A DNA stretch of 64,000 bases from Thermosynechococcaceae cyanobacterium Okahandja (lineage in GTDB: Bacteria; Cyanobacteriota; Cyanobacteriia; Thermosynechococcales; Thermosynechococcaceae), in assembly GCA_041530395.1 (NCBI GenBank), contig CP136945.1, positions 1,178,001 through 1,242,000 of the forward strand, given 5' to 3'. This document shows positions 18,853 to 47,046 of this stretch, piece by piece (the first letter of the stretch is position 1; the number at the start of each line of letters is the position of its first letter). A model generated the notes under the pieces. It saw only the letters and a program-made list of their open reading frames with translations, was not told where the DNA came from and made no database searches. The position numbers were made by a program, and so were the translations under genes.

Positions 18853-19509
18853 ATGATTATCTGTTCTGAGTGCTGTCACCCCAATCCGGTTGGTGCTGTT
18901 CAGTGTGAAGCCTGCTTTTCGCCAATGCCCATTATGAATACGTGTCCAAATTGCGGTGCACCGGTTCAATCAGACGCTAGTTTTTGCGGCCAGTGCGGGT
19001 TTAACGTGCGTCAATTTACCGTGAGTTCAGCGCCAGTACCGGACTTGCCGGATTTGGCTGCCACGGCAGTTCCGGCCATGCAACCAACGGCGGCGGCGCA
19101 AGGACGAGCCACCACCTTATCGCCACCCCCACCCCCACCGCTGCATCTGTTTCCGACAACGGCTACGCCAACCCGGCCAATTTACGCCAAACTCGTCCAT
19201 GTCCAAACCCGTAGTGAATTAGAACTGCCCCCCGGCCGTGCCGTGATTCACATTGGCAAGCCCAACGATCGCATTCCGCCAGACATTGACGTGGCTGGGT
19301 TCCCGAATTCTGAGGTGGTGTCCCGCATCCACGCCGATATTCGCGTTGAGGGAGATGCCCATTACATTGAGGATGTCGGCAGTGCCAATGGCACGTATAT
19401 TAACAATACCCCCCTCTATCCGGGCAATCGGCATCGCCTCAAAAGTGGCGATCGCATTGCTCTTGGCAAGGGAGATTTAGTGACCTTCATTTATGAACTC
19501 ACCTCCTAA
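18853..19509 (+). CDS. Double zinc-ribbon and FHA-domain protein
   Basis: 218 residues. The N-terminus has two zinc-ribbon halves: CSECCHPN...CEAC and CPNCGAP...CGQCGF. A proline-rich linker with a run of prolines (about 90-98) leads to a C-terminal FHA domain with IHIGKPND, SRIHADI, GSANGTYINN and LKSGDRIALG, the residues that read phosphothreonine. It is probably a phospho-reader that couples to Ser/Thr kinases. The next gene on the strand is an FHA-pseudokinase 46 bp on, so the pair is likely an operon. Confidence 0.88.
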   Translation: MIICSECCHPNPVGAVQCEACFSPMPIMNTCPNCGAPVQSDASFCGQCGFNVRQFTVSSAPVPDLPDLAATAVPAMQPTAAAQGRATTLSPPPPPPLHLFPTTATPTRPIYAKLVHVQTRSELELPPGRAVIHIGKPNDRIPPDIDVAGFPNSEVVSRIHADIRVEGDAHYIEDVGSANGTYINNTPLYPGNRHRLKSGDRIALGKGDLVTFIYELTS

Positions 19510-19555
19510 ACATTCTTTCTTTAGCGTAGTGACAGATAAGAGGCGGTAAGCAACG

Positions 19556-20971
19556 GTGATTACACTAACACTTCTGCATCCGGTTCAAGCAACTCCGGTT
19601 CAAAGCTGGACGTTTGACAGTGAAGCGGTGATCCGCATTGGGCGCGCGGTGGATAACCATGTAGTCCTCTACAGTGCGGTGGTCTCACGGCACCATGTGG
19701 AACTGCGGCGCAATGGACTGCAATGGGAAGTGGTGAACTTGGGCACCAATGGAACCTACCTAGATGGCAAGCGAGTGCAGCAGGCCCCCTTGGCAGATGG
19801 CGGTATTTTACGGCTGGCGCGCTCTGGCCCCAATATTCAAATCCGCCTCGATGGGGATCGGCAGCCGATGCCTCCCAATGCCCGCATGGCCACGATTCCC
19901 GAAACCCCCCAGTCGGATCCCAGTAAAGGCACCTACTCCGGCGCAGAAGAGGCCGTTGGTACCGAGGCTGAACCCATTGCCACGGCTCACGCGGAGGCTG
20001 AGCGGGGGATCACTGAGGAAGAAGAGGCGGTAGAGGAAGACTTTGTCGTTCAAGGGGAACTACCGGTGGAACTGCTGGCGGCGTGGCGGGCACCCCCTGA
20101 GTGCGGCCATCGTCGCGCCGACACCAACGATATTTTCTGCATTGAGTGTGGCGTGCCCCTCAAGGTGTGGAAGACCATTGGCAACTATCAAATTATTAGA
20201 GCGTTGGGCCAAAGTAATACCTACCTAGGTTGGCGCAATGGCCAGACAGCAGTGGTAAAAGGGCATAGCCTCGCCGCCTCGAAGTGGGAGATTCGCGCGT
20301 TTCAGCAGCAGGTCCGCCAATTGTGCCAGATGCGGCATCCGGTGCTGCCGAAATTTTGGGAGGGCTTTCAGGATGGTGCCGACTCGTACCTTGTGTCAGA
20401 AATGGTCTATGGCCAGTCTCTGAAGCAGTGGGTGCAAGATCATGGGGTGATGAATGTTGTGGAAGCCAGCCGCTGGCTCATTCCCATTTGTGACCTGTTG
20501 ACGGTGCTCCACCAGCAGGATCCGCCCATTTTGCACCTGCATATTCGCCCCTCGAACTTAATTCATCCCTATGCCAAACGGGAAACAACAAATGTTGTGC
20601 TGGTGGGCTGGGGGAAAGCATCGGTGTTGACCTCCGAGTCGGGGACGTTTATTGGTACGGTGGGGTACTCTGCCCCAGAGCAGCAGGAAGGGAAACCCGA
20701 ACCTGCCTCAGATTTGTACGCCTTGGGGGCTACCCTTGTTTACCTGCTCACGGGCAATGAACCGGATACCTATTTTCGCTGGGGGGCGCGGGAGTACCGT
20801 CTCTATGCCGAAGATATTCCCCATTTGGATCCGTTGATGGTGGACTTAATTAACTGCCTCACCCATCCGGAACCGCGGGAACGCTATGCCAATGCAACAG
20901 CCGTCAAACAGCGTTTAGAGCAAATTGCCGCTATCTCTGCGCCCACGTCGCCCGTATCGAGTGCCCTTTAG
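19556..20971 (+). CDS. FHA domain fused to a Ser/Thr pseudokinase
   Basis: 471 residues from a GTG start. Residues 1-100 are an FHA domain (VIRIGRAVDNHVV, SRHHVEL, GTNGTYLDG). An acidic linker (120-165) is followed by a small Cys/His cluster (C183, H185, C195, C198) and a kinase fold at 205-465. The VAIK-like lysine survives (AVVKG, K235) but HRDxKPxN reads HLHIRPSN (Asp to His 329, Lys to Arg 331) and DFG reads GWG at 351-353. The APE block (GTVGYSAPEQ) and SDLYALG are intact. It should bind phosphothreonine and act as a scaffold or allosteric partner rather than a catalyst. Confidence 0.85.
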   Translation: MITLTLLHPVQATPVQSWTFDSEAVIRIGRAVDNHVVLYSAVVSRHHVELRRNGLQWEVVNLGTNGTYLDGKRVQQAPLADGGILRLARSGPNIQIRLDGDRQPMPPNARMATIPETPQSDPSKGTYSGAEEAVGTEAEPIATAHAEAERGITEEEEAVEEDFVVQGELPVELLAAWRAPPECGHRRADTNDIFCIECGVPLKVWKTIGNYQIIRALGQSNTYLGWRNGQTAVVKGHSLAASKWEIRAFQQQVRQLCQMRHPVLPKFWEGFQDGADSYLVSEMVYGQSLKQWVQDHGVMNVVEASRWLIPICDLLTVLHQQDPPILHLHIRPSNLIHPYAKRETTNVVLVGWGKASVLTSESGTFIGTVGYSAPEQQEGKPEPASDLYALGATLVYLLTGNEPDTYFRWGAREYRLYAEDIPHLDPLMVDLINCLTHPEPRERYANATAVKQRLEQIAAISAPTSPVSSAL

Positions 20972-20974
20972 GCG

Positions 20975-23539
20975 TTAGCCGCGCAGGCGATCGCCAAAAT
21001 AACGGCGATACAGTTCACAGCGAACCGTCGCGACGCTGCCTTGCAAGTTAATGAGTCCCAAGCTGTGCAGCTTAAAACCAGTGGTTGCTTCGACGCTGAT
21101 GCCTGTTTCACTGTTTACAATGGCGGCAAAGGCGGGTACAAGTTCCTGCCGCTGATGCAGGTGCCACCATTGTCCCCGCAAGTGATCTCGATAAAGCCCC
21201 GTTTCGGAAGCGGCGTTGGCCATCAGTTCCGGCCATGTCACCTCCTTGCGGGCTAAGTGGTACAGGGTCAGCCGAATGAGGTAGGGGTGCCCCCCCACCA
21301 ACTGCTGGAGTTCGCGCAGGTGGTCTGGATCTAAGTCAAGACCGTGCAGGCGGCTGAGCTCCTGAATTTGTTCGTGATTAAACTCGGGCAGATCAATGGC
21401 CAGCCCAACATTAAAGGGGGACTGGTTAATGTCGAGGGGGATATAGACTTCGGTACCATGGACAACAATTAAGCGCAGGTTGCGCCAAATGTCGCGGTTT
21501 TTGCCCTCCTCGTGCCATGCCCGCAGCAGCCCAAAAAAGTCGCTGGCCACCTCCGGGTATTCAAACACCCGATCCACCTCATCTAACCCCAGCACAAGAG
21601 GACGGCCCTCCATCTGGGTGCCGGGCTTTTGACAGTTGGGCAGCAGGTACTCTTCAAAGTAGGCGGTGCAGTTGTACTTACTGCCAAAAATGTCGTCCCA
21701 GTAGTCCTTAATGCGGTTTTCTAGCCCCAGTCGCCGCCCCACGCCAGCACACAGCCAGCGCAGCAGTTTCTCAAGGTCGCTGAAGACGTGAGCATCCGCC
21801 AACTGAAAGCTGAGGGGAACGGTGCCATAGCCCTCTTGGGTGGCTCGGTACATCAACCGCGCCATGAGGGAGGTTTTACCCATTTGGCGGGGGGCCTTAA
21901 TGCGAATGAGGGAGCCGGGCTGTAGCAGAGTTTCGCGGCAGCGCTGCTCGATGGGGGGGCGCTCAATATAAAAGGCGGAGGCCACTTCCACTTGGCCTTC
22001 GGGCAGTTCAGGCTCGGCGACCGGTGCGGGGGCACCATCTCCGACAAGGGTGCCTGTTTGACCCTGTTCAATGGCAGTTTCGTGGAGGCCATCACTGGTG
22101 GGAACCACGGGATCGGCGGTGGCATTGACCATGTCAAGAACGTCTTGAATAAGACTGGCGGTATCCGCGGGCGATCGCCAAAAGCGTTGCTGGAGTCGGT
22201 GCAAGTAGCCGCGCAACTCGTAATTTAGGGGCAGATCGAGGGGAAAGTTCACCCGCACTGGTAAGATGAACGGGCGGCGATCGCTGCGCTGGGCTTGCAG
22301 TTGCTTGACGCTGCGCACTTCTTCGAGCACCATCTCACTCTGAGCGGCAGCTTGGGAGAGCAACAGTAAAAAGAAATCGCACTCCTTTAGGGCCTGATCA
22401 ATGCGATCCGCCCATCCTTCCCCTAAACGGATACTTTGACTGGCCATGAAGGGGCGGTGACCTGCCTTTTGGAGCGCCTCTTGCAGGGTAGTCGCCAGTT
22501 GTAGGTCGGTGCCATCACTGGAATGGCTAATAAATACATGGCGGCCGCGAGCTAGGGTTGCCGCGTTCGCGGCAGAGGGACTGGGTAAGGGCTGTGTTGG
22601 CAGCGGGGTTGAGGGGGGGGGTGAAGGCGCGGCTTTACTTGTGGGCGATCGCCACAGATCCTGCACAGGGGTCTTCAGAAATGTGCCAATCCGACCCCAG
22701 AAGGATTTGGGCGGCTCCACTTGGGCTAAACTAGCCAGCGCCTCTGTGGCCGTGGCAAAGCGTTCGTAGGGGGACGGATGAATTAGCTTATTGACAAACT
22801 GCACGAGGCGATCGCTGACAGGCTCTGCCGCCTCCCAATTCCAGCAGCCGTAGGGATCCTGAGTTAATTGCAGCGGACTGACCCCCGTGAGCGCCTGTAC
22901 CGCAACCATCCCCAGAGAATAGAGATCACTGGCGGGACGGGGTCGCCCTTGGGCTTGCTCGGGTGCCATATAGCCGGGGGTGCCAATGGCAATGGTTTGA
23001 GCCGTGGCCTCGCCCACAAGGGTGCCGCCCCCAATCGAGACCCCCATTTCCTTGACCGCACCAAAATCAATGAGGACAAGGCGCTGATCCAAGTGGCGGC
23101 GGATCAGATTATCCGGTTTAATGTCGCGGTGAATCACACCACACTGATGCACAAAGGCCAAAACGCCCAAGGCATCCTGAAAAAAGTCAAGCACCTCCGC
23201 CTCTGACCACGTGGCACCGGGCATCAGTTGCTGGCGCAAGACTTGGCCTTCAATAAAATCTTGGACAAGATAGAACTCGTTGTCTTCCTCAAAGTAGGCA
23301 AGTAGCCGGGGAATTTGCTCGTGACTGCCCAAGCGCTCAAGGGTTTGTGCCTCCCGCTGAAAGAGCGATCGCGCCAACGGTAAGAAACTGGGATCGGTGC
23401 GAGCCGGGCGCAGGTACTTGACAACACACTTTGCCCGCACCGGCCGATGTGTATCCTCTGCTAAGAACGTTTGACCAAAGTTCCCCGCCCCCAAGACCCG
23501 AATCAATTTGTAACGGCTGCCAAGGGTTTTACCAATCAT
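20975..23539 (-). CDS. Ser/Thr kinase-TIR-AAA-like ATPase fusion
   Basis: 854 residues in three parts. 1-270 is an apparently active kinase: glycine loop GAGNFG, K41, HRDIKPDN at 137-144, DFG at 158-160, GTPGYMAPEQ. A proline-rich linker (300-325) precedes a TIR domain at 333-470 (HVFISHSSDG, MASQSIRLGEGW, CDFFLLLLS, candidate catalytic Glu in QSEMVLEEV). From about 515 an AAA-like ATPase follows, with APRQMGKTS Walker A and LVLGLDEVDRVF Walker B. The fusion joins phosphorylation, TIR (NAD cleavage or assembly) and a STAND-like switch. It converges on the FHA-pseudokinase with 3 bp between stops. Confidence 0.88.
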   Translation of the reverse strand: MIGKTLGSRYKLIRVLGAGNFGQTFLAEDTHRPVRAKCVVKYLRPARTDPSFLPLARSLFQREAQTLERLGSHEQIPRLLAYFEEDNEFYLVQDFIEGQVLRQQLMPGATWSEAEVLDFFQDALGVLAFVHQCGVIHRDIKPDNLIRRHLDQRLVLIDFGAVKEMGVSIGGGTLVGEATAQTIAIGTPGYMAPEQAQGRPRPASDLYSLGMVAVQALTGVSPLQLTQDPYGCWNWEAAEPVSDRLVQFVNKLIHPSPYERFATATEALASLAQVEPPKSFWGRIGTFLKTPVQDLWRSPTSKAAPSPPPSTPLPTQPLPSPSAANAATLARGRHVFISHSSDGTDLQLATTLQEALQKAGHRPFMASQSIRLGEGWADRIDQALKECDFFLLLLSQAAAQSEMVLEEVRSVKQLQAQRSDRRPFILPVRVNFPLDLPLNYELRGYLHRLQQRFWRSPADTASLIQDVLDMVNATADPVVPTSDGLHETAIEQGQTGTLVGDGAPAPVAEPELPEGQVEVASAFYIERPPIEQRCRETLLQPGSLIRIKAPRQMGKTSLMARLMYRATQEGYGTVPLSFQLADAHVFSDLEKLLRWLCAGVGRRLGLENRIKDYWDDIFGSKYNCTAYFEEYLLPNCQKPGTQMEGRPLVLGLDEVDRVFEYPEVASDFFGLLRAWHEEGKNRDIWRNLRLIVVHGTEVYIPLDINQSPFNVGLAIDLPEFNHEQIQELSRLHGLDLDPDHLRELQQLVGGHPYLIRLTLYHLARKEVTWPELMANAASETGLYRDHLRGQWWHLHQRQELVPAFAAIVNSETGISVEATTGFKLHSLGLINLQGSVATVRCELYRRYFGDRLRG

Positions 23540-39367: not shown

Positions 39368-39451
39368 TCACCGGCAGCGGTTTGGTGAGAGGATGGTTTC
39401 AATCTTGTTGCCTAACGTGATTCTGTCTCACCGTTGTTCTCAGCGCTGCTA

Positions 39452-40618
39452 ATGGATACCATTCCCATTCTTGATCTCAAGGCACAGTACCAGAGCCTGC
39501 AAGCAGAAATTGATCGTGCCGTTGCCCAAGTGCTGGCATCCGGCCAGTTTATCCTTGGCCCCGAAGTTTACGCCTTTGAAGCGGAGGTGGCTGCTTATTT
39601 GGGAGTGCGCCATGCCATTGCAGTGAATTCCGGCACCGATGCCCTTGTCATTGCCCTGCGCAGTTTAGGGATTGGCAGTGGCGACGAAGTGATTACCACC
39701 CCTTTTTCTTTTTTTGCAACGGCAGAGTCCATTAGCTTGGTGGGGGCGCGTCCCGTCTTTGTGGACGTGGAACTGGACTCCTTTAACCTCAATCCGGCGG
39801 GTATTGCGGCTGCCATTACCCCTCGCACCAAGGCCATTATGCCCGTCCATTTGTTTGGCCGCCCCGCCGCCATGGGAGCTATCTACGAGCTAGCGCAGCA
39901 GCACCAGTTGGCCATTATTGAAGACTGTGCCCAATCCTTTGGTGCCCGCTATTGCCCTACCTGTGGTCACTGTCAGTGCACCAGCGCAACCCAAGCGAGG
40001 CTGGCCAATCGCTTTACCGGCACGATTGGCACCATCGGGGCATTTTCATTTTTCCCCACTAAAAACTTGGGTGCCTATGGCGATGGCGGCTTAATTACCA
40101 CCAACGATGATCAACTGGCGGCTCAGGCACGGATGCTGCGGGTGCATGGCTCACGGCAGCGCTACCACCACGAAACCTTTGGATATAATTCGCGTCTCGA
40201 TAGCTTGCAGGCGGCCATTTTACGGGTGAAGCTGCCCCATATTGATCGCTGGAACCACGAGCGGCGGCGGGTGGCGGCGACCTATAACTGTGAGTTGGCA
40301 GGCATTGCCGGACTAGTTACGCCAGAGGTGACGAACGGTCATGTCTTCCATCAATATACGGTGCGCGTCCTCAATGGCGATCGCGATCGTTTGGCAGCCT
40401 TTCTCAAAGCCGCCGGCATTAGCTCAATGATTTACTACCCTATCCCCCAAGATCACTGTCCCATGTATAAAGGCCAGTATCCCCCCAATCCTGTGAGCGA
40501 TCGCCTTGCAACAGAAGTCCTGAGTCTGCCTATTTGGCCAGAGTTAAGCGATGCCACCATTACCCACATTGCGGCAACCATCCGCGAATTTTTTGCCGCC
40601 TCTTCCCTGTCTAGGTGA
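39452..40618 (+). CDS. DegT/DnrJ/EryC1/StrS aminotransferase with a Cys-rich insertion
   Basis: 388 residues. PLP-dependent sugar aminotransferase fold: IPILDLKAQYQ, GPEVYAFEAEVAAYLG, NSGTDALVIALRSLG, EDCAQSFGARY and the PLP lysine in FPTKNLGAYGDGG. Between GARY and GTIGAFSF there is an added stretch holding C-P-T-C-G-H-C-Q-C, four cysteines and a histidine that could bind metal. Likely forms a 4-amino- or 3-amino-6-deoxy nucleotide sugar. It precedes the nonulosonate island and might supply its amino sugar step, though composition and HIP1 content match the host. Confidence 0.88.
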   Translation: MDTIPILDLKAQYQSLQAEIDRAVAQVLASGQFILGPEVYAFEAEVAAYLGVRHAIAVNSGTDALVIALRSLGIGSGDEVITTPFSFFATAESISLVGARPVFVDVELDSFNLNPAGIAAAITPRTKAIMPVHLFGRPAAMGAIYELAQQHQLAIIEDCAQSFGARYCPTCGHCQCTSATQARLANRFTGTIGTIGAFSFFPTKNLGAYGDGGLITTNDDQLAAQARMLRVHGSRQRYHHETFGYNSRLDSLQAAILRVKLPHIDRWNHERRRVAATYNCELAGIAGLVTPEVTNGHVFHQYTVRVLNGDRDRLAAFLKAAGISSMIYYPIPQDHCPMYKGQYPPNPVSDRLATEVLSLPIWPELSDATITHIAATIREFFAASSLSR

Positions 40619-40721
40619 ATGATTTGTTCTTGGAACTGCGCAATTTACCGTACCCTATGGCATTGCCAATAAAATATGACGTGCAGAATGACGTGATCAG
40701 CAAGATTAGGGAGTTGTGTCT

Positions 40722-41429
40722 ATGAATATTGCAGTCATCCCAGCCCGGGGCGGCAGTAAGCGGATTCCCCGCAAGAATATTAGGCCTTTTCACGGCAAGC
40801 CAATCATCGCGTACACAATTGAGGCTGCCAAGCAAAGTGGCGTGTTTGACCAGATTATTGTCTCTACTGATGATGAGGCGATCGGTACTATGGCCAAGTC
40901 CTATGGTGCAGAGTTCCCATTTATACGTCCACCCCAGCTAGCGGATGATTATGCAGGAACAGTCGATGTGGTCAGTCATGCAGTTCAGTGGCTAGTTGAT
41001 CAGAAAATAGCGTGTACATATGTCTGCTGCTTGTATGCAACTGCCCCCTTTCTAATGTTTTCTATCGATTACATCCGTAAGGGACTAGATATTCTCCAAA
41101 AGTCTAACCAATGGGACTATATATTTTCGGCAACAACATTCCCTTCATCAGTCTTTCGCTCCTTTTCCCTCACTGATGAGGGTGGCATCGAAATGTTATT
41201 TCCAGAACACCGCAATAGTCGTTCACAAGACTTACCTGAAATGTGGCATGATGCAGCCCAATTTTACTGGGGTACCACCGTGGCATGGTTAGAGAAAAGA
41301 GCTATGGTTGGCGGCAGATCCACAGTGATCAAGTTACCTAGATGGCAGGTACAAGATATTGACACAGAGGATGATTGGTTGATGGCCGAGCGTTTATATG
41401 GTTTGCTTATGACGAAGGAGCCATCCTAA
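40722..41429 (+). CDS. pseF: Pseudaminic acid cytidylyltransferase
   Basis: About 235 residues. Activates a nonulosonic acid as its CMP derivative for transfer. The opening NIAVIPARGGSKRIPRKNIR is the CTP-binding signature of the NeuA/PseF family, and GKPIIAYTIEAA, VSTDDEAIG and DYAGTVDVVSHAV fit PseF better than NeuA. An in-frame GTG lies two codons upstream of the ATG. The gene marks the left edge of an AT-rich island; no HIP1 octamer occurs between about 40500 and 47600. Confidence 0.88.
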   Translation: MNIAVIPARGGSKRIPRKNIRPFHGKPIIAYTIEAAKQSGVFDQIIVSTDDEAIGTMAKSYGAEFPFIRPPQLADDYAGTVDVVSHAVQWLVDQKIACTYVCCLYATAPFLMFSIDYIRKGLDILQKSNQWDYIFSATTFPSSVFRSFSLTDEGGIEMLFPEHRNSRSQDLPEMWHDAAQFYWGTTVAWLEKRAMVGGRSTVIKLPRWQVQDIDTEDDWLMAERLYGLLMTKEPS

Positions 41430-41499
41430 ATTGAACAGTTAACTAGTCACCACCATCAATAGCCCAACGCCCTTGGTGGGGATGCTGCGGTACAAAGGA

Positions 41500-41955
41500 T
41501 TATTCCCAGTCACTGCTTGTATCACACAAAAATTGGTCATCCAGTATTTGCTCAAGTGTATATACATTCTTCTGGGGGAAAACCCTCAAAGGAAGCAAGG
41601 TTTCCCGCAACGCCAAATCTAAGCCACTCTCAAAGCCATCCTCTAGTGCCTCTGCCGTCACTGAACTTAAGCTAGGATTACGCTTCAGATGGCGACGGAT
41701 AGCGCGGCGCTGCTCTCGGATGGTCAAGAACCAACTGCGGCAGCGTCCTTCGGGTTGATACTCCCATTTGAGCAGGTGACCGATGAGAACTGTAAGACGG
41801 CTAACCCACTCACGATACTCCTGCCTGCCTAAAGATTCTAATTCCTGCCTTAAATTTTCCCAATCTAGCTCAGCAGGATTCCTATTGACCAGTGCCTGTA
41901 TCTGCCACTGTGTCCAAGCATAAAAATCTGTATCGTGTAAATAGGCTTTTTCCAT
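41500..41955 (-). CDS. DUF29-family protein
   Basis: 151 residues with the cyanobacterial DUF29 pattern: YLHDTDFYAWTQWQIQALVN (20), LDWENLRQELESLGRQE, LTVLIGHLLKWEYQPE, SWFLTIREQRRAI and an ALEDGFESGLDLA tail. Function unknown; family members are numerous in cyanobacteria and often near mobile or addiction genes. It points against the pse genes and starts 42 bp from pseG, so they share a divergent promoter region. Confidence 0.85.
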   Translation of the reverse strand: MEKAYLHDTDFYAWTQWQIQALVNRNPAELDWENLRQELESLGRQEYREWVSRLTVLIGHLLKWEYQPEGRCRSWFLTIREQRRAIRRHLKRNPSLSSVTAEALEDGFESGLDLALRETLLPLRVFPQKNVYTLEQILDDQFLCDTSSDWE

Positions 41956-41997
41956 GTCGCTATAATACGAGCATGAGTTACAGCTCCATCTTACTTC

Positions 41998-43062
41998 ATG
42001 CTGGTTGTCTTTCGCGTTGACTCATCCCATCAGATTGGTATAGGGCACCTGATGCGCTGCCTTACCTTGGCAACCGCCCTACGGGAGCAAGGTGCGACCT
42101 GTGAATTTATTTGCCGTAGTCACGCCCACAACAGCATTGATCTGATCAGGCAAGAGCACTTCAGGGTTTATGAGCTACCCCAAGGGCTTGAACCCACTGC
42201 TCCTGATTGTTTGGGGGTGGCGCCTGTTATCGATGCCACTGAAACCCTTGCAATCATTAAAGGCCTTTCAGGAGTGCCCGACTGGTTAATTGTGGATCAC
42301 TATGGAATTGATCGGGGGTGGGAGCAAATCTTACGCCCATTTGTGAAGAAGATTTTTGTCATTGATGATTTAGCGAATCGTCCCCATGAATGCGATGTTT
42401 TACTTGATCAGAATTACAGCCATCGCTGGGATCGTTATGAAGGTCTTGTACCAGAGGGATGCTGTGTTCTGTTAGGGCCTGAGTACGCACTTTTGCGGCC
42501 AGAATTCCTGAAAGCACGCCAGAAAATAGAGCAGGAAGGTCGCCCACCCTTTAATCCTCGGAAAGTTCTAGTTTTCTTTGGTGGAACTGATCCTCAGAAT
42601 TACACGGGCAAAGCACTGAGTATCTTAAGGGAAATTGGAGACTTTGCCCCAGAGGTTGTCATTGGTAGCCAAAATCCCCATCGGCTCCAGATTGAAGAGC
42701 AGATGCAAGCGTTTCCTGATGGTCAATTGCATATTCAAACCCAAAAGATGGCTGAACTCATGTGCCGCTGCTCTTGGTATTTAGGCGCAGGCGGCTCGGT
42801 AACATGGGAGCGGATGTGTTTGGGTTTAACGGGAATTGTAATTTTAACCGCACAAAATCAGTACAATTTTTCTGTTGCCCTGTTTGAAGATAAGTTTCAG
42901 ATTATTATTAAGGAACTGTCATTATCTACGATTAGAAATGCCTATAAGGATTATATCCTAAATGGCAACTTTTCAAATTATTCAGAGAAATGTTTAAACA
43001 TTGTTGATGTTAAGGGTAAGGATTATCTTTGTAGTAAGGTACTGTATTTGTCAGGATTGTAA
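41998..43062 (+). CDS. pseG: UDP-2,4-diacetamido-trideoxy-altropyranose hydrolase
   Basis: 354 residues, GT-B fold. PseG removes UDP from the altrose intermediate before PseI condenses it with phosphoenolpyruvate. The diagnostic N-terminus VFRVDSSHQIGIGHLMRCLT (20) has the catalytic His in GIGHLMRC; DWLIVDHYGID, VFFGGTDPQN and GAGGSVTWERMCLG complete the pattern. From about residue 285 the DNA becomes markedly more AT-rich, matching the foreign-looking genes that follow. The next gene starts 3 bp after the stop. Confidence 0.88.
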   Translation: MLVVFRVDSSHQIGIGHLMRCLTLATALREQGATCEFICRSHAHNSIDLIRQEHFRVYELPQGLEPTAPDCLGVAPVIDATETLAIIKGLSGVPDWLIVDHYGIDRGWEQILRPFVKKIFVIDDLANRPHECDVLLDQNYSHRWDRYEGLVPEGCCVLLGPEYALLRPEFLKARQKIEQEGRPPFNPRKVLVFFGGTDPQNYTGKALSILREIGDFAPEVVIGSQNPHRLQIEEQMQAFPDGQLHIQTQKMAELMCRCSWYLGAGGSVTWERMCLGLTGIVILTAQNQYNFSVALFEDKFQIIIKELSLSTIRNAYKDYILNGNFSNYSEKCLNIVDVKGKDYLCSKVLYLSGL

Positions 43063-43065
43063 TTT

Positions 43066-43725
43066 ATGAGCAAATCCCTTAGAATATCAATACTATCACA
43101 AGAAGAATCATGGATAAATAGTTTTTTGAGGAAATGGGTCGAAGAGTTACTAGATAGATTTCAGGTAAATTTTGTTCATCAAGAAATTAATGTGGGGAGT
43201 GGTGATATTTTATTTATACTTTCTTACTGGCAAAAGGTATCAAATAATACACTCGATAAATTCACGTCACCTGTTGTTGTTCATGAAAGCGAATTACCAA
43301 AAGGGCGCGGGTGGTCTCCTGTTAGTTGGGCAGTCTTAGAAGGTAGTAACCAAATATCAATTGTTCTTTTTAAGGCAACTCCTCAAATTGATCAAGGTGA
43401 AATATACCTAAAAGATTATATTTATTTGGAAGGACATGAACTTATTGATGAAATACGAGCGAAGCAAGCTTATAAAACAATTGACTTATGCAACAGATTT
43501 ATTAAGGAATATCCGCAAATTTTGAACTACGGAGTTGCTCAAGCTGGTGAGCCTACTTACCTAAGAAGACGTACACCAAAAGATTCTCAATTAGATATTC
43601 ACAAAAGTATTTATGAACAATTAAATCTTCTAAGAATATCAGACAATGAAAAATATCCGGCTTTTTTCGAGTATCTAGGGAAGAAGTATATTATAAAGAT
43701 ATACAAAGAAGATGCTCAGCCATAA
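43066..43725 (+). CDS. Formyltransferase-like protein 1 of the nonulosonate locus
   Basis: 219 residues, very AT-rich. It has a methionyl-tRNA-formyltransferase-like core: HESELPKGRGWSPVSWAVLE (20) and an Asp in QIDQGEIYLKDY, but the Asn of the usual N-x-H-D triad is replaced by Val. The C-terminal part FLEYLGKKYIIKI resembles the tail of Fmt-like sugar formyltransferases. Probably acts on an amino sugar or nonulosonate rather than tRNA. Located directly behind pseG. Confidence 0.68.
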   Translation: MSKSLRISILSQEESWINSFLRKWVEELLDRFQVNFVHQEINVGSGDILFILSYWQKVSNNTLDKFTSPVVVHESELPKGRGWSPVSWAVLEGSNQISIVLFKATPQIDQGEIYLKDYIYLEGHELIDEIRAKQAYKTIDLCNRFIKEYPQILNYGVAQAGEPTYLRRRTPKDSQLDIHKSIYEQLNLLRISDNEKYPAFFEYLGKKYIIKIYKEDAQP

Positions 43726-43733
43726 TTTGCAAA

Positions 43734-43808
43734 AAAAATACTCTTGCTATTGCCGCCCACCCTGATGATGAAATTCTGGGCTATGTTGACACATTAGCTA
43801 TGTTTTAA
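43734..43808 (+). pseudogene. N-terminal remnant of a PIG-L deacetylase gene
   Basis: In frame, this short stretch reads LAIAAHPDDEILGYVDTLA before a TAA stop. It matches residues 11-28 of the intact PIG-L deacetylase at 44582 (VVAAHPDDEILGCGGTLA) but has no start codon and no continuation. It shows that the locus once had a second PIG-L copy next to the first formyltransferase-like gene. Confidence 0.75.
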
Positions 43809-44097
43809 ACAATGAATGATCTGATTACAGTCTTTTTATTAATAATGGGGTGTCACAGTAACTCTTTCATGATCACTTCATTCTTGAGACAGGCTTTTGC
43901 TATTTCAAATAGATTAAGGGTACCTCTATTAATTTATAAATAGTCCTTGTAGGGGAGCACACCCCGACTCTGGTTCTATGGCTACGCCACGCAAGCTATC
44001 AGCATTCTAGGGATGGACTTCTTTGCCAGTTTCAATCAATTGAGGTGCTCTAGAATCAGGTATAATAGGGGGGTGCTACTTTTATAAGTGACCTTGT
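43809..44097. other. Degenerate spacer between the PIG-L remnant and hicBA
   Basis: About 290 bp with no intact gene. One plus-strand stretch around 43960-44050 can be read as LWFYGYATQAISILGMDFFA, possibly a further decayed coding relic. The right end carries a promoter-like TATAAT. Confidence 0.4.
44040..44066 (+). promoter_or_regulatory. Candidate promoter of hicBA
   Basis: TTGAGG at 44040-44045 and a perfect TATAAT at 44061-44066 are 15 bp apart, somewhat short. The first ATG of the hicB-like gene lies 31 bases downstream. Confidence 0.4.
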
Positions 44098-44324
44098 ATG
44101 CAGAAACATATAAAAATTATTGTTGAAAAGCATACTGATGGGTATGTTGCTTATCCGCTTGGTTGGGGGGAGTTGTGATCAGTGAAGGAGACTCTTATGA
44201 AGAAGTACTAAATAATGTCAAGTCGGCAATAAATTTTCATATTCAGACATTTGGTAAAGAGGCTCTTGACGAAGATTTGTCAGTGCTAGAAGTGTTTGTT
44301 GCAGAAACAGGGGTGGTTGTTTAG
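44098..44324 (+). pseudogene. hicB: HicB-type antitoxin, frameshifted
   Basis: The N-terminal part reads MQKHIKIIVEKHTDGYVAYP then LGWGEL and a premature TGA. In the next frame translation continues VVISEGDSYEEVLNNVKSAI and ends FVAETGVVV with TAG at 44322-44324. The break falls in a run of six G at 44165-44170; one added base would restore a full antitoxin of about 75 residues. It may be a true null allele, a phase-variable tract or an assembly error. The restored stop overlaps the hicA start (TAGTG). Confidence 0.72.
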
Positions 44325-44536
44325 TGAGTAAGTTTCCTGTGGATGCACCCAAAGCTAGAGTCCTCAAAGCTCTAGGCATACTTGGTTTTTGCATCGTTAG
44401 AGAACAGGAGCATATTGCTCTAGTACGAGAAAATTTAGATGGCACAAGGACACCCCTGACGATACCCAATCATTCCTACATCAAGTCTTCCACTCTACGC
44501 ACAATCTGCACCCAAGCAGGCATCTTCTCGATATGA
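44324..44536 (+). CDS. hicA: HicA-family toxin (mRNA interferase)
   Basis: 70 residues from a GTG that overlaps the hicB stop. The sequence MSKFPVDAPKARVLKALGIL (20) followed by GFCIVREQEHIALVREN, TRTPLTIPNH and LRTICTQAGI fits HicA, a small double-stranded-RNA-binding-fold ribonuclease. The usual GSHHIF block reads EQEHIAL here, keeping the catalytic His. With hicB broken, the toxin would be expected to be harmful unless it is inactive, poorly translated, or neutralised elsewhere. Confidence 0.82.
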   Translation: MSKFPVDAPKARVLKALGILGFCIVREQEHIALVRENLDGTRTPLTIPNHSYIKSSTLRTICTQAGIFSI

Positions 44537-44581
44537 ATTTATTAGAGCTTACAACCAAACCTGAATATACTTTTAGCACTT

Positions 44582-45307
44582 ATGGTTAATTACCATTTTC
44601 ATAGAAGAGTGTTAGTAGTCGCCGCTCACCCCGACGATGAAATCCTTGGTTGTGGGGGCACCCTAGCTTTACATTCTGCTAGGGGTGATCGGGTTACTAT
44701 TATGATTATGGCAGAGGGAATTACCAGTCGCAATCAAGTACGTGATGTGACGTTATGTGGGGCTAAATTAACTGATTTACAGCAAACAGCAGTACAAGCT
44801 GCTCAAATCATTGGTGTTTCAGATGTCCGCTTTGCGGGTCTGCCAGACAATCGAATGGATAGCCTAGACTTATTGGACATTGTAAAAATTATCGAACAAG
44901 TTATTGATGACATCCAGCCAGAGATCATCTATACTCATCACTACGGTGACTTAAATATAGACCACCAAATAACCCATCAAGCCACGATGACTGCCGCTCG
45001 CCCTTTACCCAATAGTTCTGTAAAAAAATTATTATTCTTTGAAGTGCCGTCAGCAACTGGCTGGAACACTCCTACGCCTCAAAATGCTTTTATTCCTCAA
45101 TATTATATTGATTTGTCAAAAAAAATAAATGGGAGTGAAACTGCGCTTGATTATAAGTTGGAAGCCTTAAAAATTTACGAAAGTGAAATGCGCCCCTATC
45201 CTCATAACCGTTCTATGAAATCTGTAGAGTATCTAGCTTACTGGCGAGGCTCTTCAGTAGGCTTATTGAGTGCTGAAGCATTTCAAGTTGGACGAATTTT
45301 AATATGA
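44582..45307 (+). CDS. PIG-L/LmbE-family N-deacetylase
   Basis: 241 residues. Zinc-dependent N-acetyl deacetylase fold with AHPDDEILGCGGTLA near the N-terminus and HHYGDLNIDHQITHQ as the second metal-binding block. Its position between nonulosonate genes and before a formyltransferase-like gene (4-bp overlap with it) suggests removal of an N-acetyl group so that a formyl group can be added. This functional reading is inference. Confidence 0.85.
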   Translation: MVNYHFHRRVLVVAAHPDDEILGCGGTLALHSARGDRVTIMIMAEGITSRNQVRDVTLCGAKLTDLQQTAVQAAQIIGVSDVRFAGLPDNRMDSLDLLDIVKIIEQVIDDIQPEIIYTHHYGDLNIDHQITHQATMTAARPLPNSSVKKLLFFEVPSATGWNTPTPQNAFIPQYYIDLSKKINGSETALDYKLEALKIYESEMRPYPHNRSMKSVEYLAYWRGSSVGLLSAEAFQVGRILI

Positions 45308-46011
45308 AAAATCAGAGCGTTATTATTGTAACAAATCGCAAACGAAACGAATTTCTAGAAAGTTCTATTCATAGTAAAACTAAAAGGAAAACTTTCCTGA
45401 TTACCAAAGAAGAACAATTTACCTATGATCAAATAATTGATCTTAATCCCGAATGGATATTTGTTCCTCATTGGTCAAAAATAATACCAGCAGAAATATA
45501 TGAAAATTTTCGTGTTGTTATTTTTCATATGACAGATTTACCATTTGGTCGAGGTGGTAGCCCACTACAGAATCTAATTATTCGTGGATTCGAAAATACT
45601 GTTATCAGTGCTATTCAATGTACAGAAGAACTAGATGCAGGAGATATTTATCTTAAAGAACCCTTAAATCTAAATGGTACTGCTGACGAAATTCTGTTGA
45701 GAGCAAGCTTCGTCATAGAGAAAATGATTATTAGGATATTAGAGGAAAACCCAACACCGATACCCCAAAAGGGAAAGGTTACTTTTTTCCAAAGGCGTAA
45801 ACCAGACCAAAGTAAACTTGATTTTGAAAATATTCAAACCCTTGACCAATTTTATGATTATATTCGTATGCTAGATGGAGAAGGTTATCCGAATGCTTTC
45901 TTAGAAATTGGAAATTTTCGAATAATTTTTTCGTCGCCGCATCGCCGTTCTGGTCATCTTGAAAGTCAAGTGAAAATTGAGTATATTGATCAAAGTTCAT
46001 TAGGAAATTGA
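45304..46011 (+). CDS. Formyltransferase-like protein 2 of the nonulosonate locus
   Basis: 235 residues. Core motif FHMTDLPFGRGGSPLQNLI and ELDAGDIYLKEPL, typical of methionyl-tRNA-formyltransferase-like proteins found in nonulosonate and spore-coat polysaccharide loci. The triad Asn is Ile here. It starts within the last codons of the PIG-L gene (ATGA-type overlap) and is followed 3 bp on by pseI, so the three are one translation-coupled unit. It probably N-formylates the deacetylated sugar. Confidence 0.78.
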   Translation: MKNQSVIIVTNRKRNEFLESSIHSKTKRKTFLITKEEQFTYDQIIDLNPEWIFVPHWSKIIPAEIYENFRVVIFHMTDLPFGRGGSPLQNLIIRGFENTVISAIQCTEELDAGDIYLKEPLNLNGTADEILLRASFVIEKMIIRILEENPTPIPQKGKVTFFQRRKPDQSKLDFENIQTLDQFYDYIRMLDGEGYPNAFLEIGNFRIIFSSPHRRSGHLESQVKIEYIDQSSLGN

Positions 46012-46014
46012 AAA

Positions 46015-47046
46015 ATGAATGTTGACTTTTCCAGTATAAATCAGCCATTCATTATTGCGGAAATGTCTGGCAATCACAACCAATCCTTAGAAAGAGCACT
46101 GGAAATCGTTAAATTTATTGCAGAATCAGGTGCTCACGCTCTAAAGCTTCAGACTTACACTGCTGATACGATGACGATTCCATCAGCCAAGAAAGATTTC
46201 TTCATTGCTGATCAAGGCAGTCTTTGGAAAAATCAATCACTCTATGATCTGTACCAAAAAGCCTATACACCTTGGGAATGGCATCAACCTATTTTTGAGC
46301 GCGCTAAAGAACTTGGTCTGATTGCATTTAGTACGCCTTTCGATCTCACGGCTGTTGATTTTCTTGAAGAGCTAAATTGCCCTCTTTATAAAATTGCCTC
46401 GTTTGAAAATGCTGATTTGATGTTGATCAAGCGAGTGGCTGAAACGGGTAAGCCGGTGATTATGTCCACTGGTATGGCAACGCTTGCTGAGCTTGATGAG
46501 GCTGTGCGCACGATTCGGGCTACAGGTAATGATCAAATCGTGCTCCTGAAATGTACCAGTACCTATCCAGCAGATCCCACTGACTCTAACCTGCGGACAA
46601 TTCCCCACCTGAAGGAGTTATTTGGCTGTGAGGTGGGGTTGTCAGACCATACGTTAGGGATTGGGGTTGCTGTTGCTGCTGTTGCCTTGGGAGCAACGGT
46701 TATTGAAAAGCACTTTACCCTTAGCCGTGGCGATGGTGGAGTGGATGCGGCGTTTAGTATGGAACCCCACGAAATGAAGATGCTCGTGGAAGAAACCCGC
46801 CGTGCTTATCAGGCGCTAGGTTGTGTTCATTATGGCCCCATGGAAGCGGAAAAGAAATCACTGGTCTATCGGCGTTCCTTGTATTTTGTTAAGGATATGG
46901 CCGCAGGGGAGGAGATTACGCCTGAGACAATTCGCTCGATCCGTCCGGGGTATGGGTTACCGCCTAAGTACTACGATGTTCTTTTGGGTAAGCGGGTCAA
47001 GAGGGCTGTGGAGCGTGGTACCCCCGTGTCCTGGGATGTCTTTTGA
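46015..47046 (+). CDS. pseI: Pseudaminic acid synthase
   Basis: 343 residues. Condenses a 6-deoxy-altrose derivative with phosphoenolpyruvate to a nine-carbon acid. NeuB-type barrel: PFIIAEMSGNHNQSLERALE (20), ALKLQTYTADTMT, FSTPFDLTAVDFLE, KIASFEN, MSTGMATLAELDEAV, VGLSDHTLGIGVAVAA, EKHFTLSRGDGGVD; a C-terminal SAF domain (SLYFVKDMAAGEEITPETI) follows. The N-terminal half is AT-rich and the C-terminal half approaches host composition, so the island edge lies within the gene. Confidence 0.93.
   Translation: MNVDFSSINQPFIIAEMSGNHNQSLERALEIVKFIAESGAHALKLQTYTADTMTIPSAKKDFFIADQGSLWKNQSLYDLYQKAYTPWEWHQPIFERAKELGLIAFSTPFDLTAVDFLEELNCPLYKIASFENADLMLIKRVAETGKPVIMSTGMATLAELDEAVRTIRATGNDQIVLLKCTSTYPADPTDSNLRTIPHLKELFGCEVGLSDHTLGIGVAVAAVALGATVIEKHFTLSRGDGGVDAAFSMEPHEMKMLVEETRRAYQALGCVHYGPMEAEKKSLVYRRSLYFVKDMAAGEEITPETIRSIRPGYGLPPKYYDVLLGKRVKRAVERGTPVSWDVF

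Follow-up and report, generated by a model that had tools for sequence, protein, structure and literature searches.

The closest described relatives of the protein considered here are TIR-type STAND/NLR receptors (RPP1, RUN1, WRR4A, Avs3/4, and the Apaf-1 class), in which the sensor repeats lie on the same chain as the ATPase, and the conflict systems of multicellular prokaryotes (Kaur et al. 2020, PMC7159879), which, like cyanobacterial systems linked to diversity-generating retroelements (PMC7517822, PMC10907252), join exchangeable TIR, caspase, trypsin, and CHAT effectors to NTPases and repeat sensors. We analyzed a three-gene locus from Thermosynechococcaceae cyanobacterium Okahandja (GenBank assembly GCA_041530395.1, contig CP136945.1) that lies within a 64,000-nucleotide stretch, hereafter the window (positions 1,178,001 to 1,242,000 of the forward strand). 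It encodes two FHA-domain proteins, P0001 and P0002, and a fusion of kinase, TIR, and AAA_35 ATPase domains, P0003. An initial annotation had taken the three genes to form one system. On balance, we favor the reading that the locus holds two separate modules, an FHA reader pair and, in P0003, the effector of a STAND-type (NLR-like) switch made up of two proteins, the other being a distantly encoded AAA_35-WD40 protein. The features of the locus, in window coordinates, are as follows.

18853 to 19509, + strand: P0001, double zinc ribbon and FHA protein of 218 residues, which opens the conserved FHA pair
18862 to 18999, + strand: double zinc ribbon of P0001, residues 4-49 (PF12773, 9.6e-10)
19282 to 19467, + strand: FHA domain of P0001, residues 144-205 (PF00498, 9.6e-17)
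19556 to 20971, + strand: P0002, FHA domain, zinc-ribbon-like linker, and pseudokinase, 471 residues, GTG start
19631 to 19816, + strand: FHA domain of P0002, residues 26-87 (PF00498, 3.3e-15), with GR, SRHH, and NG motifs
20237 to 20905, + strand: pseudokinase domain of P0002, residues 228-450 (Pkinase, 1.7e-19)
20975 to 23539, - strand: P0003, kinase-TIR-AAA_35 protein of 854 residues
22733 to 23512, - strand: Hanks-type Ser/Thr kinase domain of P0003, residues 10-269 (PF00069, 7.9e-35), PknB-like fold
22229 to 22537, - strand: TIR domain of P0003, residues 335-437 (PF13676, TIR_2, 1.5e-19)
22319 to 22321, - strand: Glu407 codon of P0003, a residue that lines up with the RUN1/Cat1/BtTIR-type catalytic Glu
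20993 to 22006, - strand: AAA_35 (STAND/ORC-like) ATPase of P0003, residues 512-849 (PF14516, 1.3e-144)

Pfam searches confirmed the domains that the initial annotation had assigned to the three proteins, and its convergent arrangement was also correct: the stop codons of P0002 and P0003 are separated by exactly 3 bp (20972-20974), and 46 bp lie between P0001 and P0002. All three are real genes: their orthologues show conservation, and nonsynonymous to synonymous substitution ratios (dN/dS, ω) of ~0.03-0.07 were obtained for the domain cores of P0002 and P0003. An Rfam search of the window gave no match. The host genome is a single contig of 2.82 Mb (G000) and was compared within a set of 291 cyanobacterial genomes, 11 of them from its genus. 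The genus name Thermosynechococcus is used by inference, the closest named records being Thermosynechococcus metagenome assemblies with 81-83% protein identity.

Only two of the 11 genus genomes had P0003 next to the FHA pair, namely G000 and its closest relative (G133, where the spacing between P0002 and P0003 was 33 bp rather than 3 bp), and the P0003-P0002 adjacency was limited to these same two across all 291 genomes. The distance between P0003 and the FHA pair was ~20 to 320 kb in six single-contig genus genomes (for example, 20 kb in G044, 23 kb in G140, 150 kb in G102, and 316 kb in G058), and in draft genomes of the genus P0003 and P0002 were located on different contigs or their linkage could not be scored. 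An RsbW-like gene follows P0003 on the same strand in all nine genus genomes that lack the adjacency; in G000 it is found 79 kb from P0003, which indicates that a rearrangement placed P0003 against P0002. A recent rearrangement thus put two separate conserved modules side by side. The conserved three-gene cluster was rejected on these grounds, each half having its own conserved neighbors elsewhere, and the co-occurrence of the genes likewise spoke against the single system of the initial annotation: P0001 had matches in 225 and P0002 in 228 of the 291 genomes, as compared with ~23 for the full kinase-TIR-AAA protein. The RsbW-like gene was also rejected as a functional partner of P0003; since it was not beside P0003 relatives in the examined loci outside the genus and is unlinked in G000, its position was taken as local synteny.

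The residues needed for catalysis are retained in P0003. Gly loop, β3 Lys, αC Glu, HRD, DFG, and APE residues were invariant in all 24 kinase-bearing homologues, consistent at the residue level with the active kinase proposed in the initial annotation. A TIR pocket lacking the catalytic Glu, which that annotation had named as a refuting case, was rejected: in sequence alignments Glu407 falls on the catalytic Glu of RUN1, Cat1, and BtTIR, and this putative catalytic residue was retained in 41 of 42 homologues, including those without a kinase. Profile matches of the TIR domain comprised AbTIR, BtTIR, Cat1, RUN1, and Roq1, and the Trp commonly found before the Glu motif is replaced by Met403. 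Walker A (GKTS) and Walker B (DE) are intact, with both motifs present in 42/42 homologues. A structure model of the AAA_35 region (predicted local distance difference test score, pLDDT, of 87) yielded Foldseek matches to PAB2304, ORC2, Avs3/4, RPP1, WRR4A, and Apaf-1, so that the modeled fold belongs to the STAND/ORC class. Only kinases were among the matches listed when the whole P0003 model was used in Foldseek, and the AAA_35 profile had no match among PDB sequences. Within the genus, ω was 0.064 for the kinase, 0.068 for the TIR domain, and 0.056 for the ATPase. P0003 was rejected as a known PADLOC system, because the best matches (PD-T4-6 and mad6) were limited to the kinase (residues ~5-280); a TIR match to ThcB4 was weak and below the cut-off.

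Compared with the receptors of the TIR-type STAND/NLR class, P0003 shares a predicted TIR NADase (NAD, nicotinamide adenine dinucleotide) and a STAND-like ATPase with intact Walker motifs, but it differs in its N-terminal, active-looking kinase, in the use of AAA_35, a type of ATPase common in cyanobacteria, and in the location of the sensor repeats. Such repeats are absent from the P0003 chain, in which AAA_35 extends to residue 849 of 854, and are instead found on a second AAA_35 protein. The multicellular-prokaryote conflict systems use the same exchangeable effectors; unlike them, the P0003 family involves two distinct AAA_35 proteins in a tandem pair, and no vWA/MoxR/VMAP core was seen at P0003 loci, although no dedicated hidden Markov model scan was made for it.

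The pairing was evident outside the genus, where a second AAA_35 gene of a distinct (w-type) subtype was near the TIR-AAA_35 gene in 30 of 34 testable loci; in 29 it lay downstream in the same orientation, and in 19 within 700 bp. Part of this set was picked after the trend had been noticed, and among the 20 loci picked before, the second gene was nearby in 16. The protein encoded by the second gene mostly carries WD40 repeats, the remainder having TPR, another kind of propeller, or, in a single instance, FHA. At the N-terminus of the TIR-AAA_35 protein we found a kinase (in Thermosynechococcus and relatives), Trypsin_2, CHAT, caspase (Peptidase_C14), or no known domain. Since the N-terminal enzymes and the sensors of the partners vary, both ends are exchangeable around constant ATPase cores. 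Each of the 11 genus genomes has exactly one TIR_2 gene and exactly two AAA_35 genes, those for P0003 and a WD40 partner. In G000 the latter encodes an AAA_35-WD40 protein of 1164 residues (~G000:C1:186838-190330; L154:6836-10327), 1.0 Mb from P0003. Inspection of this protein by eye predicts a membrane-spanning segment, and its full-length identity with the adjacent partner in G188 is 43%. The sensor partner of P0003 is thus likely this distant gene product rather than the FHA proteins. No account of paired AAA_35 genes came up in literature searches, which mostly did not extend to subscription journals.

Several further features of these genes were recorded. The AAA_35-WD40 gene of G000 lies ~55 bp downstream of a clpS-like gene, and the G044 copy contains three in-frame stops. 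In G179 an AAA_35-FHA fusion gene (L165:6910-8454) is located beside the TIR-AAA_35 gene, FHA replacing the sensor part of the partner. Five loci (L012, L014, L015, L016, and L018) have ~2.1-2.5 kb between the TIR-AAA_35 gene and the WD40 partner, and in L014 this gap holds a filamentous-haemagglutinin-like exported protein of 611 residues, as read by eye. We also listed 25 AAA_35 pairs without TIR, a hand-picked group from which no rate can be derived.

Several observations weigh against the two-protein switch. The two AAA_35 genes are unlinked in the genus, so that the partnership rests on the relatives and on co-retention, and the partner is also unlinked in four other genomes with the kinase-TIR-AAA protein (G069, G112, G154, and G014). 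Genes of the AAA_35-WD40 type occur in 191 of the 291 genomes and, being so common, provide weak evidence by their presence alone outside the genus. Lastly, the full-length P0003 model had a low predicted template modeling score (pTM, 0.51) and does not fix the arrangement of the domains.

From the domain anatomy and the pairing we infer how such a switch would work, including the physical interaction of P0003 with its partner, its NADase activity, the signal, and the outcome. The WD40/AAA_35 partner would sense a cue, after which the two ATPases would co-assemble in an ATP-dependent manner, and assembly would bring TIR domains together, leading to NAD cleavage or production of a nucleotide signal. 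The N-terminal kinase, which takes the place of the protease domains of other members, may tune or relay this output by phosphorylation. Gating of the TIR domain by the ATPase, as suggested in the initial annotation, is plausible, the AAA_35 fold being STAND-like in the model.

The second module consists of the FHA pair. P0001 was followed by P0002 on the same strand and in the same order at all 30 of the best P0002 places, with gaps of 2-586 bp, and the pair was preceded by pgl (6-phosphogluconolactonase, an identity assigned by eye from sequence) in 9 of the 11 wide loci from beyond the genus. P0002 was correctly recognized as an FHA-pseudokinase in the initial annotation: it has HLH (residues 327-329) in place of HRD and GWG in place of DFG, and thus lacks the catalytic Asp of both motifs, while the β3 Lys is retained. 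Alignments revealed that these substitutions are shared by all genus orthologues that have the motif and that the phosphothreonine-binding motifs of the FHA domain (GR, SRHH, and NG) are intact and nearly invariant in the family. The kinase motifs of the family range from intact (G015 and G006) through degenerate (the genus) to absent in FHA-only proteins (G018 and G154). P0001 and P0002 are an old pair, which we read as cyanobacterial phospho-readers belonging to a pathway separate from that of P0003. G000 also encodes an intact FHA-kinase paralogue of P0002, of 419 residues with HRD and DFG present (G000:C1:427171-428427; L132:9172-10428). As side observations, P0001 is frameshifted in G133 (L114/L055) and an insertion splits P0002 in G030 (L133), each attributable to gene decay or sequence error, and a second locus in other cyanobacteria (L140, L141, and L142) has genes for a zinc-ribbon-FHA protein, a zinc-ribbon-PP2C phosphatase, and a kinase in a row.

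The zinc ribbon and FHA architecture of P0001 (Pfam) matches that of FraH (Anabaena alr1603), an FHA protein that has its zinc ribbon at the N-terminus and whose gene lies near pgl/devB; on this basis, and from the pgl linkage in relatives, P0001 may be a FraH orthologue. FraH acts in heterocyst membrane reorganization (PMC11500504), whereas Thermosynechococcus is unicellular. Two FHA-kinases were noted in Thermosynechococcus elongatus (Krupa and Srinivasan 2005, PMC1262709), and a survey that excluded proteins without catalytic domains counted only one (Zhang 2007, PMC2176072). P0002 shares with these cyanobacterial FHA-kinases (PMC1262709, PMC2176072) an N-terminal FHA domain joined to a kinase fold, but is catalytically dead; the active FHA-kinase of G000 is the paralogue described above. 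Bacterial Ser/Thr pseudokinases such as mycobacterial MviN with FhaA (PMC12599244) likewise make a catalytically dead kinase part of a scaffold built on FHA, but in P0002 the FHA domain and the pseudokinase share one chain.

A single phospho-signaling system, in which the P0003 kinase marks targets, the FHA domains of P0001 and P0002 read the marks, and the AAA domain gates TIR, is in our estimation very improbable. The three genes are adjacent in G000 and G133, FHA domains and an active-looking kinase coexist in the cell, and the FHA domain on the AAA_35 partner of G179 makes FHA reading of the P0003 kinase family conceivable; against this, the adjacency is confined to those two genomes, each half keeps different neighbors elsewhere, and the FHA pair is widespread where the kinase-TIR-AAA protein is missing. 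We consider it unlikely that the P0002 kinase domain is functionless and merely decaying. The intact-to-absent series of kinase motifs in the family and the split gene of G030 would fit decay, but within the genus ω of the pseudokinase domain was 0.066, as low as that of the active P0003 kinase, and the linkers had values of 0.16-0.28. The pseudokinase fold is therefore under strong purifying selection, and because the dead kinase is as constrained as the live one while the linkers are looser, we argue for a scaffold role: the domain, its catalysis lost in the genus, may have been kept as a folded scaffold on an FHA protein.

For P0003 itself, an arrangement in which the kinase provides the real output and TIR and AAA_35 serve only oligomerization has a modest chance of being correct. 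It draws on Met403 and on the complete set of kinase catalytic residues in the homologues, but the near-universal Glu407, found even in kinase-less proteins, argues against a TIR domain that is scaffold only, as does the fact that TIR is the constant part and the N-terminal enzyme the one exchanged. The two-protein switch could also be a housekeeping device for stress or homeostasis rather than anti-phage immunity, a possibility we rate somewhat below even. P0003, the only TIR protein and one of two AAA_35 proteins, is held together with its partner by every genus genome, and all of its domains are under strong purifying selection, unlike the patchy spread typical of defense genes; the TIR domain, STAND-like ATPase, and exchangeable protease/caspase effectors and sensors are, on the other hand, the domain set of conflict systems (compare PMC7159879). 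Presence throughout the genus points to a cellular stress switch no less than to anti-phage defense.

Elsewhere in the window (39434-47046), a run of genes was read by eye as encoding biosynthesis of a nonulosonic acid (pseudaminic/legionaminic-type) sugar, with an aminotransferase, a CMP-sugar synthase, a PseG-like protein, two formyltransferase-like proteins, a PIG-L deacetylase-like protein, and a NeuB/PseI-like protein. The guanine-plus-cytosine fraction drops to 0.38-0.40 at 42-46 kb versus ~0.56, suggesting transfer of this run.

P0003 is a variant of the TIR-STAND/conflict-type proteins and not a new category. The analysis corrects the operon-style reading of the three genes and names the AAA_35-WD40 protein as the partner candidate for P0003. 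The FHA pair, for its part, makes it possible to compare intact, dead, and lost kinase domains within one pseudokinase family whose FHA reader is nearly invariant. With the only TIR protein of the genus and a single other AAA_35 gene, Thermosynechococcus provides an unusually clean system for studying the gating of a TIR enzyme by paired ATPases, and one suited to asking what a fused kinase adds. More broadly, and tentatively, cyanobacteria may possess widespread paired STAND-like ATPases as a counterpart of the paired NLRs of plants, one member bearing TIR and an exchangeable enzyme and the other an exchangeable sensor, of which Thermosynechococcus would retain a split core switch.

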